DNA from: Anaerotruncus massiliensis (ex Togo et al. 2026)
GTDB lineage: Bacteria; Bacillota; Clostridia; Oscillospirales; Ruminococcaceae
Length of the DNA: 64,000 nt
Direction of reading: 5' to 3'
Assembly (NCBI RefSeq): GCF_900199635.1
Contig: NZ_LT962687.1
Coordinates: forward strand, 370,863-434,862
Under the pieces are notes generated by a model, which was given only the letters and a program-made list of their open reading frames with translations, ran no database searches and had not been told where the DNA came from. The translations under genes were made by a program, and so were the position numbers. Shown piece after piece: positions 36,421 through 43,890 of the stretch (position 1 is its first letter; every line of letters begins with the position of its first letter).

Positions 36421-36473
36421 AAAACGGATAATAGGGCGGTATGCGCCTTGGCAGAGATGGGAGCAGGGGATTG

Positions 36474-37616
36474 ATGGAAGAAAAAACGGCATATCTGGAT
36501 AACGCGGCGACCACGCGCGCCTGTCCGGCGGCGGTGGAAGCGGCGGCGCGGATGATGCGGGACTGCTTTGGGAATCCCTCCTCCCTGCACGCAATGGGGC
36601 TTGCCTCGGCGCGGGAGATGGCTGCGGCGCGGGAGGCGGTCGCGGCGCTGCTGGGGTGTCAGGCCGAGTGCGTGACCTTCACCTCGGGGGGCAGCGAGGC
36701 GAATAACCTCGCGGTCTTCGGCGGCGCGGCGGCGCGCGCGCGGCGCGGAAAAAAGCTCGTCACGACGGCGGCGGAGCACTCCTCCGTCTCGGAGGCGATG
36801 CGGCGGCTCGAGTCGGAGGGCTGGGAGGTCGCGTACGTGAAGCCCGGCCCGGATGGGAAGCTCGACGCCGGGGCGTTCGCCGACGCGGTCGACGAACGCA
36901 CGGCGCTCGTCAGCATGATGCTCGTCAACAACGAGACGGGCGCAATCTTCCCGGTGGCGGAGGCCGCGAAGCGCATCCGCCGCAAAAATCCCGAGACGCT
37001 CATCCACTGCGACGGGGTGCAGGCGTTTGGCAAGCTGCCGCTGCGCGTCTCTCGCATGGAGGTCGACCTGATGAGCGTGAGCGGGCATAAAATCTGCGGA
37101 CCCAAGGGGTCCGGGGCCCTCTATATTCGCCGCGGCGTGCGCGTCCTGCCGCAGATCTGCGGCGGCGGGCAGGAGCGGGGGCTGCGCTCGGGCACCGAGA
37201 ACCTCCCGGCGATCGCCGGGTTCGGCGCGGCGTGCGCCGCGCTTAACGGGAAGGTGCCGGAGAATTTTGCGCGCGCCGAAGCCCTGCGGGACCGCCTGCG
37301 GGAACAGCTTTCGGAAATGAGCGGGGTGCGGCTGATCTCCCCGGCGGACGGCTCCCCCTACATCGTGAATTTTTCGGTGCCCGGCTACCGCTCGGAGACG
37401 ATGCTCCACTTCCTCGAGAGCCGGGGGGTCTTTGTTTCGAGCGGGTCGGCCTGCTCGAAGGGGGCGAAAAGCCCCGTGCTTTTGTCGATGGGGCTGCCCG
37501 CCCCGGTGGTGGACGGCGCGCTGCGCGCGAGCTTCATCTACGGGACAAGCGAGGAGGAGCTGGACATGCTGGTTTCGGCCCTCCGCGAAGGAATCGCCAG
37601 GGTGGCGCACAAATAA
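36474..37616 (+). CDS. Cysteine desulfurase, NifS/IscS family
   Basis: A 380-residue PLP enzyme that takes sulfur from cysteine as an enzyme-bound persulfide. YLDNAATTR opens the fold, PLP is bound at Lys206 in SGHKICGPKG, and the persulfide cysteine is Cys327 in SSGSACSKG. AGGGGA precedes the ATG at 36474. The thiI gene begins 21 bases after the stop, matching the NifZ-ThiI pairs of Bacillus and clostridia in which the desulfurase supplies sulfur for tRNA 4-thiouridine. Confidence 0.95.
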   Translation: MEEKTAYLDNAATTRACPAAVEAAARMMRDCFGNPSSLHAMGLASAREMAAAREAVAALLGCQAECVTFTSGGSEANNLAVFGGAAARARRGKKLVTTAAEHSSVSEAMRRLESEGWEVAYVKPGPDGKLDAGAFADAVDERTALVSMMLVNNETGAIFPVAEAAKRIRRKNPETLIHCDGVQAFGKLPLRVSRMEVDLMSVSGHKICGPKGSGALYIRRGVRVLPQICGGGQERGLRSGTENLPAIAGFGAACAALNGKVPENFARAEALRDRLREQLSEMSGVRLISPADGSPYIVNFSVPGYRSETMLHFLESRGVFVSSGSACSKGAKSPVLLSMGLPAPVVDGALRASFIYGTSEEELDMLVSALREGIARVAHK

Positions 37617-37637: not shown

Positions 37638-38807
37638 ATGAAGGAACTGATACTGCTCAAATGCGGCGAGCTGGCGCTCAAGGGGCTCAACCGCCGCTCC
37701 TTTGAGGAAGTGCTGATGAAAAACTGCCGGCGCAGGCTGGAGACGCTCGGGAGCTTTAAGATCCGCAGCGCCCAGTCGACGATCTACGTCGAGCCGGAAA
37801 GTGAAGAGATCGATATCGACGAGGCGGTCGACCGTCTTTCGCGCGTCTTCGGCGTGGCCGCGCTCACCCGCGCGGCGATCGTCGAAAAGGACTTTGAAAA
37901 GATCCGCGCGGCGGCCCCGGGCTATCTGCGGTACGCACTCGAGGGGGCGCGGACCTTCAAGGTGGAAGCCAAGCGGTCGGACAAGACCTTCCCGATGAAG
38001 TCGCCCGAAATCTGCATGGAGATGGGGGCCGCGCTGCTCGAGGCGTACCCCCGCCTCACGGTGGACGTGCACCACCCCGACGTGACCGTCTACGTGGAGA
38101 TCCGCGAGGTGGCGGCCTACCTGCACACCGACCAGCTCCACGGCGCGGGAGGGCTCCCGGTCGGCACGAGCGGGCGGGCGATGCTGCTCATTTCCGGCGG
38201 CATCGACAGCCCGGTGGCGGGCTGGATGATGGCCAAGCGCGGGCTGGAGGTCATGGCGGTGCACTTTGTGAGCCCGCCCTACACGAGCGAATTCGCGCTC
38301 GAAAAGGTGCGCACCCTCTGCAAAAAGATGTCCGCCTGGTGCGGGCGGGTGCGGCTGGCGGTCGTGCCCTTCACCGAGATCCAGGAGGCCATCCGGGACA
38401 ACTGCCCCGAGGACATCTTCACCGTCGTGATGCGGCGGATGATGATGAAGATCGCCGCGCGGATCGCGCGGGAAAACGGCTGCGGCGCGCTCATCACGGG
38501 GGAGAGCCTCGCGCAGGTGGCCAGCCAGACGCTCGACGCGCTCGCCTGCACCGATGTGGCGAGCGACCTGCCGGTGCTGCGCCCGGTGATCGGCATGGAC
38601 AAGGACGAGATCGTGCGGATCGCCAACAAGATCGACACGTTCGAGACCTCGATTCTGCCCTACGAGGACTGCTGCACCGTCTTCACCCCCCGGCATCCCA
38701 AGACAAAACCCCGCCTCGGCTACGTTCTGGAGGCGGAGAGCCGCCTGGACGCGGAGGCGATGCTCGCGTGTGCGACGGAAAACACGCGGATGGAAACGAT
38801 CGGCTAA
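37638..38807 (+). CDS. thiI: tRNA 4-thiouridine synthase ThiI (short form)
   Basis: A 389-residue enzyme installing 4-thiouridine in tRNA. An N-terminal ferredoxin-like plus THUMP region (about 1-165) precedes the PP-loop ATPase domain, whose motif LISGGIDSPVAGWMM begins near residue 184. The rhodanese domain of E. coli ThiI is absent, as is usual for the type that works with a dedicated NifS desulfurase, which is encoded directly upstream. The gene after it is the CinA-sortase-SpoIID fusion, 33 bases away. Confidence 0.95.
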   Translation: MKELILLKCGELALKGLNRRSFEEVLMKNCRRRLETLGSFKIRSAQSTIYVEPESEEIDIDEAVDRLSRVFGVAALTRAAIVEKDFEKIRAAAPGYLRYALEGARTFKVEAKRSDKTFPMKSPEICMEMGAALLEAYPRLTVDVHHPDVTVYVEIREVAAYLHTDQLHGAGGLPVGTSGRAMLLISGGIDSPVAGWMMAKRGLEVMAVHFVSPPYTSEFALEKVRTLCKKMSAWCGRVRLAVVPFTEIQEAIRDNCPEDIFTVVMRRMMMKIAARIARENGCGALITGESLAQVASQTLDALACTDVASDLPVLRPVIGMDKDEIVRIANKIDTFETSILPYEDCCTVFTPRHPKTKPRLGYVLEAESRLDAEAMLACATENTRMETIG

Positions 38808-38840
38808 AACGCCGCACACCAAGAAGAAGGAGGGTTTTGC

Positions 38841-41800
38841 TTGATCGCTGAGATTATCGGCGTCGGCGCCGCCCTTGCCGAGGACGGCGCGCTGGCGGCA
38901 AACACCCGGTTACTCGAAAAGGAACTCGGGACCTGCGGGATCGAGGTGGGGGCTTCCGCCGCCGTGGGGACCAGCGTGCAGAGCCTGCGCGCGGCGATCG
39001 CGCGCGCGCTCGGGCGCAGCGACGTGGTCATCCTGATGGGCGGGCTCGGCCCCGGGCCGGACGGCATTGCCAAGGAGACCGTCTGCGAGGGGCTCTCCCG
39101 CCGCCTCGTCATGCACGAACCGAGCCTCAAGCGGATGAAGGAGGCCTATGAGCGCGCCGGGCGGCAGATGCCACAGCAGGTCGCCAGGCTCGCGATGATG
39201 CCCGAGCAGTCGGTGGTCTTCCCCGGCGTGCGCGGGGTCACCCCCGGCTGCGCGCTGTCGGCGGGCAACCAGTTTCTGCTGATGGTGCCCGAGGACCCGC
39301 GGGAGTTCGTCCCGATGTTCCAGCACAGCGTCATGCCCTATCTGGCGAAGTTTTCCGACGCCGCCGTCGTGACCCGCACGGTGGGCGTCTACGGCCCCGA
39401 TGAAAAGGAGATGCGCGAAAAGCTCGGCCCCATCCTGCGCTCGCAGAACCCGGCCGTCGCCGTCTATCCCCGGCGGGGCGAATTCCAGGTGCGCGTCACG
39501 GCGCGCGCCGCCGACAAGGCGCAGGCCTCGGCCATCTGCGCGCCCGTCGTGAAGGAGATCGAAAAGCGCCTCGGGGAGGCGGTCTTCGGCGTCGACTGCG
39601 GGCCCCTCCCGCAGGTCGCGGCCGGACTGCTGGCCGGGGCGAAGCTCACCGTCAGCCTCGGCGAGGCGTGCACCGGCGGGTCGCTCGGGGAGCTGCTCTC
39701 CGCCGCGCCCGGCGGCGCGGGGACGGTCGCCTACGGCGTCTCCGCCTACTCCGACCGCATCAAGCAGGATTCCCTCGGCGTGTCCGCCAAGCTCCTCAAG
39801 AAATACGGCCCCGTAAGCCCGCAGACGGCCGCCGCCATGGCGCAGGGCGCGATGGAGAAGGGAAAATCCGCCCTCGGGCTCGCGGTCACCGGCAACGCCG
39901 GCGGACGCGGCGAGGACGCGAAGCGGACGGGCACCGTCCACATCGCCCTCTGCGACGCGAAGGAGGTCTGGACGAGGAGCCTTTCGCTCCCCAAGGACAC
40001 CCCGCCCGAGGCGATCCGCTACGCCGCCTGCCTGGCCGCGCTCGACCTTGTGCGGCTGTACATAACCGCCCTGCCGGGAAGGCTCCCGGGCGGGGCGCCG
40101 CTGAAGGACGCGGCGGCGGGCAGGCTGCCCGCGCCGGCCGCGGCCGGCGCGAAGGGGGAGGGCCCCGGCGCGCAGAAGAAGAAACGCGGCTTTCTCGCGG
40201 CGGTCTTCCCGGCCAGAGGGGACGCCCCCGCCGACGTGGTGCGCAAGCTCATCCTCATCGTGGCGGTCTGCGTCTTCATCGGCTCGGCGGCCTACCTCGT
40301 CAGCTTCTACGGCGGCTCGGCCAAAAACCGCAGCCAGAACGAGGAGATCGCCAAGGCGTACAGCGCCGCGCTCGGCATCGAGGACGACGGCAATATCGAG
40401 GTGCCCGACGGCTATCCCGCCGGATACCAGAAGAAGTTCGCCAACCTCTACCAGATCAACGAGGACGTGGCGGGCTGGCTTTCGATCGACGGCACCCAGG
40501 TCAACTACCCGGTGGTGCACTATATCGACAACAGCTACTACCTGCGCCGCGACTTCTACCGCAAGGACAACAAATACGGCATCCCCTGGCTCGAGGCGAA
40601 CGACTCGATGGAGCCGCAGAGCGACAACTACATCATCTACGGCCACAACATGACCGACGGGCAGATGTTCGGCGAGCTGATGAAGTACAAGGGCGCGAGC
40701 GGCACCAAGGATTTCGCCAACCCCACGGCGGGCATCGAGTATCTGCGGGAGCACCCGGTCATCTCGTTCGACGACGTCTACCGGGACAACGACTATAAGA
40801 TCATGGCCGTCTTCATCACCAACGCCAAGGAGGCCTACGGCCCGATCTTCTATTACAACACCTACCTGGACCTCGGCGACCAAGCCACCTTCAACACCTT
40901 CGTCGACGAGATCACCAGCCGCTCCTACTACAGTTCCAACGTTGACGTCCAGTTCGGCGACAAGTTCCTCATGCTCTCCACCTGCTCCTACGAGTTCGGG
41001 CCCGTCTCGGACGACGCGCATGTGCGCACCGTCGTGGTCGGGCGCCGGGTGCGCGACGGGGAGAAGGCGGACGGCAGCGACATCACCTACAGCGTCAACC
41101 AGAACGTCAGGCTGCCTGCGGGCTTTGCGGGCGGGCAGGCGACCGCGGAGGCGGTCAAGAACGCCAAGACCGAGTCGGCGGCGGGCCTCGTGCCCGAGCT
41201 GCCGGGCGCTTCCGCGGCGGCCAGCGCCGGCGCGTCGGGCGCGGCGGGCGGTTCCTCCGCCGCGGCGTCCCCGTCCTCCTCGCAGAGCGCCGCGCAGACG
41301 GAGTACGACGATCGGGCGCTCGGTTACGCCGACGACGCGCAGTACGCGCTGAAAAAGGCCCGCGAGGCGCGCGATGAGGCGCAGAACTACCTCGACAGGG
41401 CCGGGCGCGGCTCGGCGGGCGCCTCCGAGGCGCGCGGCGCGGCGGACAAGGCGGCGCAGGCGATGGACCGCGCGAAGCAGGCCTATTACGACGCGCTCGA
41501 CGCGTCCGACCTCGCGCGGGAGATCTACGAGAAGCATCCGTCCGGCGTGACCAAGCAGGCGTACCAGGACGCGCTGGCGGCGGCCAATTCGGCCAAGAAG
41601 GAATTTGAAAAGGCGGAGCAGTACGCCGACGAGGCGGAGAGCATCGCGCGCGACAAGGAGAAGGAGTCCGCCTCGTCGAGCAGCAGCACGGCGAGCACGG
41701 TGACGCCGCCCGCGTCGAGCGAGGCCGCGCCGCCCCCGGCGAGCAGTGAAACGCCGCCGCCGCCCAGCGAGCCGGAGCCGGAGCCGGAACCCGAGCCCAC

Positions 41801-42668
41801 CCCCGAGAGCAGCCAGCCGGTCGAGGAGACGGGCGGCGGCGACGAGGGCGGCGAAGGGGAGACGCAGGTCGCGGCCGCGACGGTGCGCAGCTCCGCCAAC
41901 GACAAGCTCACGATCGTGACGGGAGGCAAAAAGACGACCGGGCGCGCGACGGACATCGTCGCGCGGGTCGTCATGAACGAGATGGGCGCGGGCTTCGAGG
42001 AGGAGGCGATCAAGGCGCAGGCGGTCGCCGCCTACACCTTCATCAAGCAGCAGAACAAGAGCGGCATCACCCCCTACCTCGGCACCAAGACGCCGAGCGA
42101 CGAGGTGTACGACGCGGTCGAGGAGGTCGCGGGCGAGGCGGTCTACTACAAGAACAAGCTCGCCTTCACCCCCTTCTACGCGACCTCGGCGGGCGTGACC
42201 ATCGCCTCGGAGGACGTGTGGGGCGGTAGCTACCCCTACCTCGTGTCGGTCGACAGTGAGATCGACGAGATGGCCAGGAACTATGAGGTCAGCGTCAAGC
42301 TGAGCGCGGACGCCGTCGCCAAAAAGGTGAAGAGCGCCCTCAAGATCGACCTCTACGACTACAGCGACGACCCGGATGACTGGTTCGACATCGAGGATTA
42401 CACCGAGGGCGGCATGTATGTCAAGTCGGTGCGGGTGGGCAGGAAGACGGTGACCGGCAGGGTCCTGCGGGAAAATGTGCTCGGCCTGCGCTCCGCCGCC
42501 TTCGAGATCGACTATTCCTCCCGCCGCGACGAGTTCACCTTCACGACCTACGGCTACGGCCACGGGGTCGGCATGAGCCAGACGGGCGCCAACCTCTACG
42601 CCGCCGAGGAGGGCTGGGACTACCTCGACATCCTGGAGCACTACTACCCCGGCACCAAGGTCAAATAG
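38841..42668 (+). CDS. CinA - class B sortase - SpoIID/LytB fusion protein
   Basis: One uninterrupted 1275-residue ORF from a TTG start 6 bases after AAGGAGGG. Residues 1-165 are the CinA MoaB/MoCF-like domain and about 258-420 the CinA C-terminal (NMN deamidase-type) domain with LGEACTGGSLGE. A basic linker (QKKKRG) leads to a transmembrane segment (about 468-492). A class B sortase follows (505-735) with His602 in YGHN, Cys715 in LSTCS and Arg729. Then come an Ala/Glu/Lys coiled coil (about 820-940), a Pro/Glu-rich spacer and a SpoIID/LytB domain (about 1010-1275, VVMNEMG and GYGHGVGMSQTGA). Topology predicts CinA inside, sortase and SpoIID outside. No stop separates the parts; internal GTG codons near 40235 lack a well-placed RBS. 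Confidence 0.88.
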   Translation: MIAEIIGVGAALAEDGALAANTRLLEKELGTCGIEVGASAAVGTSVQSLRAAIARALGRSDVVILMGGLGPGPDGIAKETVCEGLSRRLVMHEPSLKRMKEAYERAGRQMPQQVARLAMMPEQSVVFPGVRGVTPGCALSAGNQFLLMVPEDPREFVPMFQHSVMPYLAKFSDAAVVTRTVGVYGPDEKEMREKLGPILRSQNPAVAVYPRRGEFQVRVTARAADKAQASAICAPVVKEIEKRLGEAVFGVDCGPLPQVAAGLLAGAKLTVSLGEACTGGSLGELLSAAPGGAGTVAYGVSAYSDRIKQDSLGVSAKLLKKYGPVSPQTAAAMAQGAMEKGKSALGLAVTGNAGGRGEDAKRTGTVHIALCDAKEVWTRSLSLPKDTPPEAIRYAACLAALDLVRLYITALPGRLPGGAPLKDAAAGRLPAPAAAGAKGEGPGAQKKKRGFLAAVFPARGDAPADVVRKLILIVAVCVFIGSAAYLVSFYGGSAKNRSQNEEIAKAYSAALGIEDDGNIEVPDGYPAGYQKKFANLYQINEDVAGWLSIDGTQVNYPVVHYIDNSYYLRRDFYRKDNKYGIPWLEANDSMEPQSDNYIIYGHNMTDGQMFGELMKYKGASGTKDFANPTAGIEYLREHPVISFDDVYRDNDYKIMAVFITNAKEAYGPIFYYNTYLDLGDQATFNTFVDEITSRSYYSSNVDVQFGDKFLMLSTCSYEFGPVSDDAHVRTVVVGRRVRDGEKADGSDITYSVNQNVRLPAGFAGGQATAEAVKNAKTESAAGLVPELPGASAAASAGASGAAGGSSAAASPSSSQSAAQTEYDDRALGYADDAQYALKKAREARDEAQNYLDRAGRGSAGASEARGAADKAAQAMDRAKQAYYDALDASDLAREIYEKHPSGVTKQAYQDALAAANSAKKEFEKAEQYADEAESIARDKEKESASSSSSTASTVTPPASSEAAPPPASSETPPPPSEPEPEPEPEPTPESSQPVEETGGGDEGGEGETQVAAATVRSSANDKLTIVTGGKKTTGRATDIVARVVMNEMGAGFEEEAIKAQAVAAYTFIKQQNKSGITPYLGTKTPSDEVYDAVEEVAGEAVYYKNKLAFTPFYATSAGVTIASEDVWGGSYPYLVSVDSEIDEMARNYEVSVKLSADAVAKKVKSALKIDLYDYSDDPDDWFDIEDYTEGGMYVKSVRVGRKTVTGRVLRENVLGLRSAAFEIDYSSRRDEFTFTTYGYGHGVGMSQTGANLYAAEEGWDYLDILEHYYPGTKVK

Positions 42669-42734
42669 GCCGGAGACCCCGGCGGAGACGGGCCGCCTTT
42701 TCGGCGGCATCCGGGAGTTTTATAAAATTTCCTC

Positions 42735-42837: not shown

Positions 42838-43890
42838 ATGAATCTGCTCAAAAAGTTCCTGCGCGGGGTCTACTATTTCTGCGTGGGCGTTAAGTCGGCC
42901 GTGTGCGACTTCCTTGACTGGTACACCAACAACCGGAGCATCCCCCGCGTGCTGCGCAGCCGCGCGTCCCTCGCGGTGATCGTGCTCGCGGTGGCGGCCG
43001 GAGGCTGGGGGCTCGTCTCGGCGGTCTCCGGCATGGACCTCACCCGCAGGGAGCCCGTCTCCCCGAGCTCCTCCGCACAGGAGGAGCAGGCCTCGCAGCC
43101 GCAGCAGCCCGTCTCCGAGGCGGAGCCTGTTTCCGTGCCTGCGGAGCCGGCGGAAAGCAGCCAGCCGGAGGTGGACGCGCTCGCCGGCGCGACCCGTTAC
43201 GAGCCGGTGACGGCGGTGCAGCTCTCCCGCCTGCTCAAATCCCGCGCCGAAACCTATGAGAAGGAGGAGGGCGCGACCTTCACGCCTCCCGCCGCCGGGG
43301 ACATCGCCGGGTGGAAGGCGGTCAACCCCGACGTGTTCGGCTGGATCACCATCGCGAACACCAACATTAGCTACCCGCTCGTCTACAACGCGAACACCAA
43401 TTTCTACACCAGCCGCGGCTACTATAAAGAGGCGAGCCGCAACGGCGTCATCTGGGCGGACGGCGACACCAAATTTGACGCGAACGGCGAGATCACCTCG
43501 CGCAACTGCGTGCTCTACGGGCACAACTGGACCAACTGCTGGCGGCCGGTGCGCATCGGCAATCCGGGCGACGTGATGTTCGCTCAGCTCGCAGCCTACG
43601 ACAACGCCGAATTCGCCAAGGCGAATCCCTACATACGCGTCGCCACGCTCGGCGGCGACCACCTCTACCAGGTGTTCACCGTCTTCTACACCGACCTGAG
43701 CTTCGGCTACAACTACGCGGACGGCGCGGTCGTCAACCAGATCATCTCGACCGCCAAGGCCAAGAGCATCCACGACTTCGGCGTCACGGTCGGCCCGAAC
43801 GACAAGATCATCACCCTCTCCACCTGCACGCGGGTGCTCGGCGCGGGCGACAACCAGCGGTTCGTCGTCATGGCCAAGAAGATCTCCTAG
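42838..43890 (+). CDS. Class B sortase
   Basis: A 350-residue membrane-bound transpeptidase. A basic N-terminus, one transmembrane helix (about 42-64, ASLAVIVLAVAAGGWG), a Ser/Glu/Pro-rich spacer (70-115) and a class B sortase domain (about 145-350) with His229 in YGHNW, Cys330 in LSTCTR and Arg341 in NQRFVV. It is the second such domain within 2 kb, the first being inside the upstream fusion. No NPxTN- or LPxTG-type substrate is seen in the window. It has its own extended -10 promoter and terminator, so it can be expressed apart from the fusion. Confidence 0.93.
   Translation: MNLLKKFLRGVYYFCVGVKSAVCDFLDWYTNNRSIPRVLRSRASLAVIVLAVAAGGWGLVSAVSGMDLTRREPVSPSSSAQEEQASQPQQPVSEAEPVSVPAEPAESSQPEVDALAGATRYEPVTAVQLSRLLKSRAETYEKEEGATFTPPAAGDIAGWKAVNPDVFGWITIANTNISYPLVYNANTNFYTSRGYYKEASRNGVIWADGDTKFDANGEITSRNCVLYGHNWTNCWRPVRIGNPGDVMFAQLAAYDNAEFAKANPYIRVATLGGDHLYQVFTVFYTDLSFGYNYADGAVVNQIISTAKAKSIHDFGVTVGPNDKIITLSTCTRVLGAGDNQRFVVMAKKIS

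Follow-up and report, generated by a model that had tools for sequence, protein, structure and literature searches.

The stretch of DNA analyzed here, termed the window, comprises 64,000 nucleotides of contig NZ_LT962687.1 from Anaerotruncus massiliensis (assembly GCF_900199635.1, positions 370,863 to 434,862 of the forward strand). It contains at 38841..42668 on the plus strand a single open reading frame (ORF) of 1275 codons without an internal stop, which joins CinA, a class B sortase, and a SpoIID/LytB domain and is designated the cinA-srtB-spoIID fusion gene. This composition, put forward in an initial annotation made from the sequence alone, was borne out by matches to Pfam and NCBIfam models. 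The frame begins with TTG, and a Shine-Dalgarno (SD) sequence, AAGGAGGG, can be read just 5' of this start codon at 38827..38834 (+). The GC content at third codon positions (GC3) was 0.90 to 0.98 along the whole length of the gene. An antisense open frame of 1266 amino acids at 38910-42710 (-), which spans nearly the entire fusion gene, is favored by a GC3 of at least 0.9 and is probably not a gene.

The Pfam models MoCF (residues 5-169), CinA_KH (178-250), CinA (259-406), Sortase (547-737), and SpoIID (1039-1101) all scored above their gathering thresholds on the fusion protein; the NCBIfam models TIGR03064 (SrtB), spore_II_D, and those for full-length CinA stayed below their cut-offs. In coordinates of the window, the CinA N domain with the COG1058/MoCF fold occupies 38853..39347 (+), the KH domain 39372..39590 (+), and the C domain with the PncC fold 39615..40058 (+). 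A linker with the sequence KKKR (40059..40247, +) precedes the single transmembrane segment, residues 470-488 (40248..40304, +), which is the sole hydrophobic segment of the protein and coincides with a long helix, 462-509, in the structure model (model numbering; model residue 1 is protein residue 2). The class B sortase domain at 40479..41051 (+), identified by Pfam, the nearest structures, and residue alignment, contains His602, Cys715, and Arg729 exactly as first claimed, and the basic linker and the membrane segment are likewise in place. Residues ~814-945 (41280..41675, +), earlier called a coiled coil, are indeed helical but were predicted as three long helices. A Ser/Pro/Glu-rich low-complexity linker (41676..41945, +), modeled mostly with low confidence, leads to the SpoIID/LytB domain (41964..42662, +), recognized by NCBIfam SpoIID_LytB and with the conserved Glu1047. 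When the C-terminal model was used as a query for related folds, no match reached E ≤ 0.001. The membrane topology follows from the positive-inside rule: the basic stretch on the N-terminal side of segment 470-488 should be located at the cytosolic face of the membrane, which would place CinA in the cytosol and the remainder of the protein outside, a plausible arrangement and the one initially proposed.

Evaluation of the CinA part needs to consider the residues responsible for catalysis. Nine known catalytic or ligand positions were scored by alignment to CinA of Thermus thermophilus (TtCinA), the numbering of which is used here. Glu12, Asp45, and Asp76 bind the metal in TtCinA (PMC4246079), and the Agrobacterium CinA lost its activity when the corresponding residues were changed (PMC3680494). 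The CinA deamidase, which acts on nicotinamide mononucleotide (NMN), is thought to be a Ser/Lys dyad enzyme, and the activity of the AtCinA variants S31A, Y58A, K63A, and R145A was undetectable (PMC5384747). Five of the nine residues were replaced in the fused CinA of the window: the three metal-binding acids by Ala, Thr, and Gly, respectively, the catalytic Ser of the deamidase by Ala (GEACTGG), and the phosphate-binding Arg377 by Pro, with the phmmer alignment likewise showing no Arg at the latter position. Glu268, Tyr296, Lys301, and Thr340 were retained, so that both residues of the alternative deamidase mechanism proposed by the authors of the TtCinA study, Lys301 and Thr340 (PMC4246079), are present. 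Judged by the mutant data, the losses of Ser and Arg tell against a deamidase activity of the fused CinA. With respect to COG1058, the MoCF-type fold and Pfam PF00994 are present and the metal-binding acids absent; with respect to the PncC NMN deamidases, the Ser/Lys dyad is broken with the Lys kept, and Arg377 is missing. A second CinA of the same genome (L002) possesses all nine residues. Because of the five replacements and the intact second copy, the fused CinA is most likely a folded pseudoenzyme; its halves, initially described as complete, have the whole fold but not the full set of enzymatic residues. The annotation as CinA does not imply an NMN deamidase here.

Unlike these active sites, the sortase triad and the SpoIID glutamate remain in the window protein according to the alignments. 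The His/Cys/Arg triad is located in a sortase fold. The SpoIID/LytB domain reached 135.4 bits with TIGR02669 (cut-off 83.3) and contains the catalytic Glu1047; this Glu was kept in all 51 SpoIID domains inspected, of which 32 belong to fusions with CinA. Separate matches to a SpoIID and to other sortases, in addition to the second CinA, exist elsewhere in the genome.

The search of domain databases and related genomes did recover the architecture: CinA and sortase formed one open frame in each of the 11 genomes that represent the genus, and in 9 of these the frame also included SpoIID. Named isolates with the fusion were Anaerotruncus colihominis DSM 17241 (complete genome), JM4-15, and Marasmitruncus massiliensis. 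The possibility that an error of assembly or sequencing conceals a stop codon or a frameshift, with 40.08 to 40.25 kb as the suspected region, was refuted by the ten further genomes of the genus with an open CinA-sortase frame, one of them a complete isolate genome, and such an explanation is close to impossible. Uniqueness of the fusion to this genome was also rejected, since it was found in relatives from the genus, the family, and the order. Relatives do not always encode separate proteins at this position, as had been considered: the fusion is kept in many, although others have separate genes. In G003 and G008, a CinA-sortase protein without SpoIID is accompanied by a second protein that lacks a sortase and is composed of CinA, a membrane segment, and SpoIID (loci L184 5658-8738 and L185 222-3269 in G008 and G003); these pairs would fit a duplication of a triple fusion, after which the two copies lost opposite domains.

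Alternatively, the fusion gene may give rise to separate CinA and sortase-SpoIID proteins, through an internal translation start or a proteolytic cleavage close to the membrane helix. The in-frame GTG codons 466 and 467 are positioned before the helix, with GAGGGG 15 to 20 bases before the first of them, a long spacing, and among the 11 proteins of the genus, six have in-frame starts preceded by an SD-like sequence. These starts are at differing places among the 11 relatives, however, and in the window none of the tested SD-like motifs was found up to 18 bases upstream of the in-frame starts of this region, so that several products are hardly to be expected.

The fusion gene resides directly downstream of genes for a nifS-type cysteine desulfurase (36441..37616, +) and thiI (37638..38807, +), both on the same strand and identified by Pfam and NCBIfam, in agreement with the nifS-thiI operon setting noted before. 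In 53 of the 55 fused loci with at least 2.8 kb of upstream sequence (67 fused loci examined), thiI and nifS were directly upstream; they were not in L167 and in L184, the additional CinA-SpoIID copy. A second, separate class B sortase gene is located downstream of the fusion gene (42838..43890, +; Pfam and NCBIfam), as is a serine-acetyltransferase-like gene; ypeB, another neighbor, is divergently oriented. A second class B sortase directly 3' of the fusion was present in 7 of the 11 loci of the genus, and in family f4 a second sortase gene followed the CinA-sortase fusion in four of four loci (L175, L176, L198, L199).

Across the order, the nifS-thiI-cinA-srtB-spoIID locus was seen split, partly fused, or wholly fused. 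Three genes, cinA, srtB, and spoIID, were present in G023, G140, G203, G361, and G078, a partial fusion cinA plus srtB-spoIID in G118, and a partial fusion cinA-srtB plus spoIID, for example, in G011, G092, G180, and G162. The distribution was followed with a CinA-sortase profile of 719 columns at a threshold of E 1e-152 in the family and class samples. Since this threshold misses eroded fusions (G024, G027, and G021 were not matched in the family sample), the resulting counts are lower bounds. Matches were obtained in at least 67 of 396 genomes and 33 of 126 genera of the family; 62 of the 67 were single frames and five were split (G023, G078, G118, G140, G203). In the order sample of 345 genomes, single-frame matches with CinA and sortase occurred in f4, f9, f15, and f23 besides f1, those from f23 containing only the C half of CinA with the sortase, and G355 of family f24 was fused as well (L190). 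Only the own genome and G303, a split relative from the same order, matched in the class sample (341 genomes), and the non-own matches among those listed for the phylum sample (348 genomes) ended by about column 440 of 719, the end of CinA; this list was ordered by score, which puts fusions at its top. A phylum-wide spread of the fusion was not seen; weak fusions outside the order may exist, given the threshold used. Two CinA frames carry an extra part unrecognized by domain models, L191 5226-7229 (668 amino acids, another family of the phylum) and the C-terminal part of the 728-amino-acid frame L202 1728-3911 (G057), which was grouped with the split CinA proteins.

After removal of duplicates and of ORFs with a CinA span below 330 residues, which reduced the residue table from 179 to 120 rows, all nine residues were found in 58 of 59 separate CinA ORFs, many of them top-scoring search matches, the remaining one containing Ser for Thr. 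Fused CinA ORFs possessed the nine residues in 24 of 61 cases and lacked the full set in 37, as counted from this table. The nine residues were also present in 44 of 45 second or separate CinA copies, and the residual copy consisted of just a deamidase domain, the residues of which were intact.

This decay can now be combined with the CinA copy number. A genome scan gave a CinA match in 77 of 78 genomes, and a fully intact fused CinA was the sole CinA match in 24 of 24 such genomes. Five further single-copy genomes (G043, G046, G079, G153, G226) keep the deamidase residues, with the N domain lost or altered, or cut at a contig end. Among the 64 sortase-fused proteins of the first set, 29 had an intact deamidase site and no other CinA in the genome, none had an intact site next to a second copy, 33 were degenerate (or missing the deamidase domain) next to a second copy, and 2 were degenerate with one or no match (G042, G036); the second copy of G071 and G163 is a deamidase domain alone. 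The 20 matches of the family sample that were examined after the pattern had been seen served as test set. A second copy was present in 17 of these 20, and the fused CinA was degenerate in all 17 (the second match being a 56-residue frame in G1203 and a deamidase domain alone in G032); with a single copy, G1234 had the nine residues, and G1299 and G1334 were degenerate. In the combined 84 sortase fusions, a second CinA in the genome was accompanied by a degenerate CinA part in 50 of 50 cases, whereas 30 of the 34 fusions without another CinA had an intact deamidase site. G023, which is split and the second match of which is only the N half of CinA, was counted as single-copy and is outside the 84. 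Most of the 20 test genomes share genera with the first set and therefore add few independent events, and the 30 second copies listed include 11 from the genus, which are not independent either. Averaged over the contrasts on well-supported branches of the first set, a second copy coincided with decay in 1.9 of 2, and no contrast pointed in the opposite direction. In a CinA tree calculated with a quick method, the second copies clustered and the degenerate fusions formed one side of a branch; this tree left out L184, L138, L135, L130, L060, and L039, which are six of the seven listed heavily degenerate fusions, as well as all MoCF-PncC fusions scored without KH (including L185) and separate CinA proteins outside the named groups.

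Neutral fusion could be sufficient to account for such decay: the CinA part would be a roleless N-terminal leader of a membrane sortase that is being eroded. When the fusion state was mapped onto a sortase tree with 75 rows, 7 changes were required for "fused" and 10 for SpoIID sharing the frame; these numbers have no direction, which means that losses of the fusion are possible among them. CinA was worn down to one domain or partly lost in several lineages, to a PncC-membrane-sortase protein in L140, L141, and L177 and to a MoCF-membrane-sortase protein in L134; the deamidase-domain-only fusions L140, L141, and L177 keep their deamidase residues, with L090 being the same protein as L177. Against a passenger, the degenerate CinA subdomains had ratios of nonsynonymous to synonymous substitution rates (dN/dS) of 0.03 to 0.27, close to those of the intact second copy of the same genomes, which shows that the fused degenerate CinA is under purifying selection in close relatives. 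In addition, the three CinA subdomains remained recognizable in the sortase fusions of all 11 genomes of the genus. A passenger is the less likely explanation, although one that retains some weight.

Which enzymatic part is dead differs between the lineages. Among the 64 fusions, 17 had the nine CinA residues and the sortase triad, 7 an intact CinA and a dead sortase, 29 a degenerate CinA and a live sortase, 6 a partial CinA and a live sortase, and in 5 both were dead. The later 20 contained 1 with both intact, 17 with a degenerate CinA and the triad, 1 with both dead, and 1 with the sortase cut by a contig end. The sortase His and Cys were lost in L192, L126, L194, L195, L133, L193, and L203, where CinA was intact and the only copy found; judged by their residues, these seven resemble CinA enzymes that are tethered to the membrane and carry a pseudosortase. 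Nine CinA residues together with the triad occurred in 0 of 29 triple fusions versus 17 of 35 fusions without SpoIID (Fisher p 5e-6 by a test that ignores shared ancestry), and in 0 of 7 versus 1 of 13 in the later set. On supported branches, only four independent contrasts bear on this pattern, most of which show no difference, and L055 is a triple fusion that keeps the deamidase residues and the triad, so that the rule that no triple fusion is fully active was dropped to a pattern.

The initial annotation had regarded the protein as a tie across the membrane between a salvage enzyme and the wall, in which a working pyridine-nucleotide salvage enzyme is tethered to transpeptidation and glycan cleavage. 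The architecture for this connection exists, and fusions with an intact, sole CinA are found in other genera: the nine-residue fused CinA was the only CinA in all 24 genomes mentioned above and in a 25th (G1234), and the sortase triad was also present in 18 of these 25. In the window protein, however, both active sites are hit by the loss of five of the nine residues while an intact CinA is available elsewhere in the genome. An active salvage enzyme in this protein was rejected on its residues, and metabolic coupling of this kind is very improbable here.

The explanation that we prefer, as the likelier one overall, is that a wall enzyme anchored in the membrane has taken a recycled CinA pseudoenzyme as its cytosolic module. 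The neighboring genes cinA, srtB, and spoIID would have been fused downstream of nifS-thiI, and the catalytic residues of the fused CinA would have been lost in lineages with a second CinA. The product would be one type II membrane protein with a cytosolic N terminus. Its external portion, the class B sortase and the glycan-cleaving domain of the SpoIID type, probably works jointly on the wall. The folded CinA pseudoenzyme on the cytosolic side most likely can no longer deamidate NMN or hydrolyze ADP-ribose and probably has a structural or regulatory role, for instance, in dimerization or partner binding. Since TtCinA is an asymmetric dimer (PMC4246079), dimerization would be the simplest property retained.

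Several observations weigh against the wall enzyme with a pseudoenzyme module. The low dN/dS indicates constraint between close pairs only and does not reveal the nature of this constraint. Four degenerate fusions were found in genomes without a second CinA, the assemblies of which were 91 (G042), 87 (G036), 76 (G1299), and 77% (G1334) complete, and the copy-number rule in the first set rests on 2 independent contrasts on well-supported branches or 7 on all branches. The degenerate CinA sequences are long branches, and their single clade may be an artefact. TIGR03064 gave 139.8 bits on the sortase, below its cut-off of 153.75, so that the assignment to class B depends on the nearest structures and the best model. 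No SrtB sorting signals were found in the genome with TIGR03063, a weak model of 29 positions that also gave matches in 12 of 14 control genomes, none above the cut-off, and a regular-expression scan of the ORFs of the window for such a signal found none. Finally, the Cys of the zinc site is required in SpoIID of Clostridioides difficile (PMC6221140), and residues 1021-1275 of the window protein, which harbor the SpoIID domain, do not contain any Cys.

A CinA pseudoenzyme that still binds a pyridine nucleotide may alternatively gate the sortase and the glycan-cleaving domain through the membrane helix, as the tethered sole NMN deamidase would do in the single-CinA relatives while still catalyzing. 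This is doubtful; if true, NAD turnover would be read out at the cell wall. The fusion makes it possible to test for a connection of CinA with the cell wall. The locus shows intermediates on the way from three genes to one. Different lineages have lost the active site of the cytosolic enzyme, of the wall enzyme, or of both, and yet the chain has remained joined, which amounts to a natural experiment on the purpose for which the fusion was selected.

No paper joining CinA, sortase, and SpoIID was found in the open-access literature (subscription journals and preprints not covered), in line with the earlier statement that no described protein of such a composition is known. Open-access papers naming sortase with SpoIID, CinA with "fused," or Anaerotruncus dealt with other subjects among the matches listed and in the parts available, and the accessible part of a paper on sortase B (PMC11987632) did not contain the word "fused." All three domains are known, and what is without a found report is their joining, with one part turned into a pseudoenzyme.

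The closest relatives of the CinA part are the CinA/PncC proteins composed of COG1058, KH, and PncC, such as those of Thermus thermophilus (4uux) and Agrobacterium (2a9s), from which the window CinA differs by its tethering to the membrane through fusion and by the loss of the metal triad, the deamidase Ser, and the phosphate-binding Arg. With the class B sortases of Bacillus anthracis (2oqw) and C. difficile (4ux7), the protein shares the fold, the His/Cys/Arg triad, and a membrane helix N-terminal to the domain; it possesses in contrast about 460 residues with CinA before this helix and the three-helix segment plus SpoIID behind the sortase. The domain and the catalytic Glu agree with SpoIID and SpoIID-LytB proteins (4rwr, 5i1t, 5txu), but the SpoIID of the window is not a separate protein, is devoid of Cys, and is accompanied by another SpoIID in the genome. 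The split operon cinA-srtB-spoIID of G023, G140, G203, G361, and G078 has the same order, behind thiI and nifS where the upstream sequence suffices, whereas it comprises three genes and a CinA with intact residues, and it would be the ancestral state from which the fusions arose.

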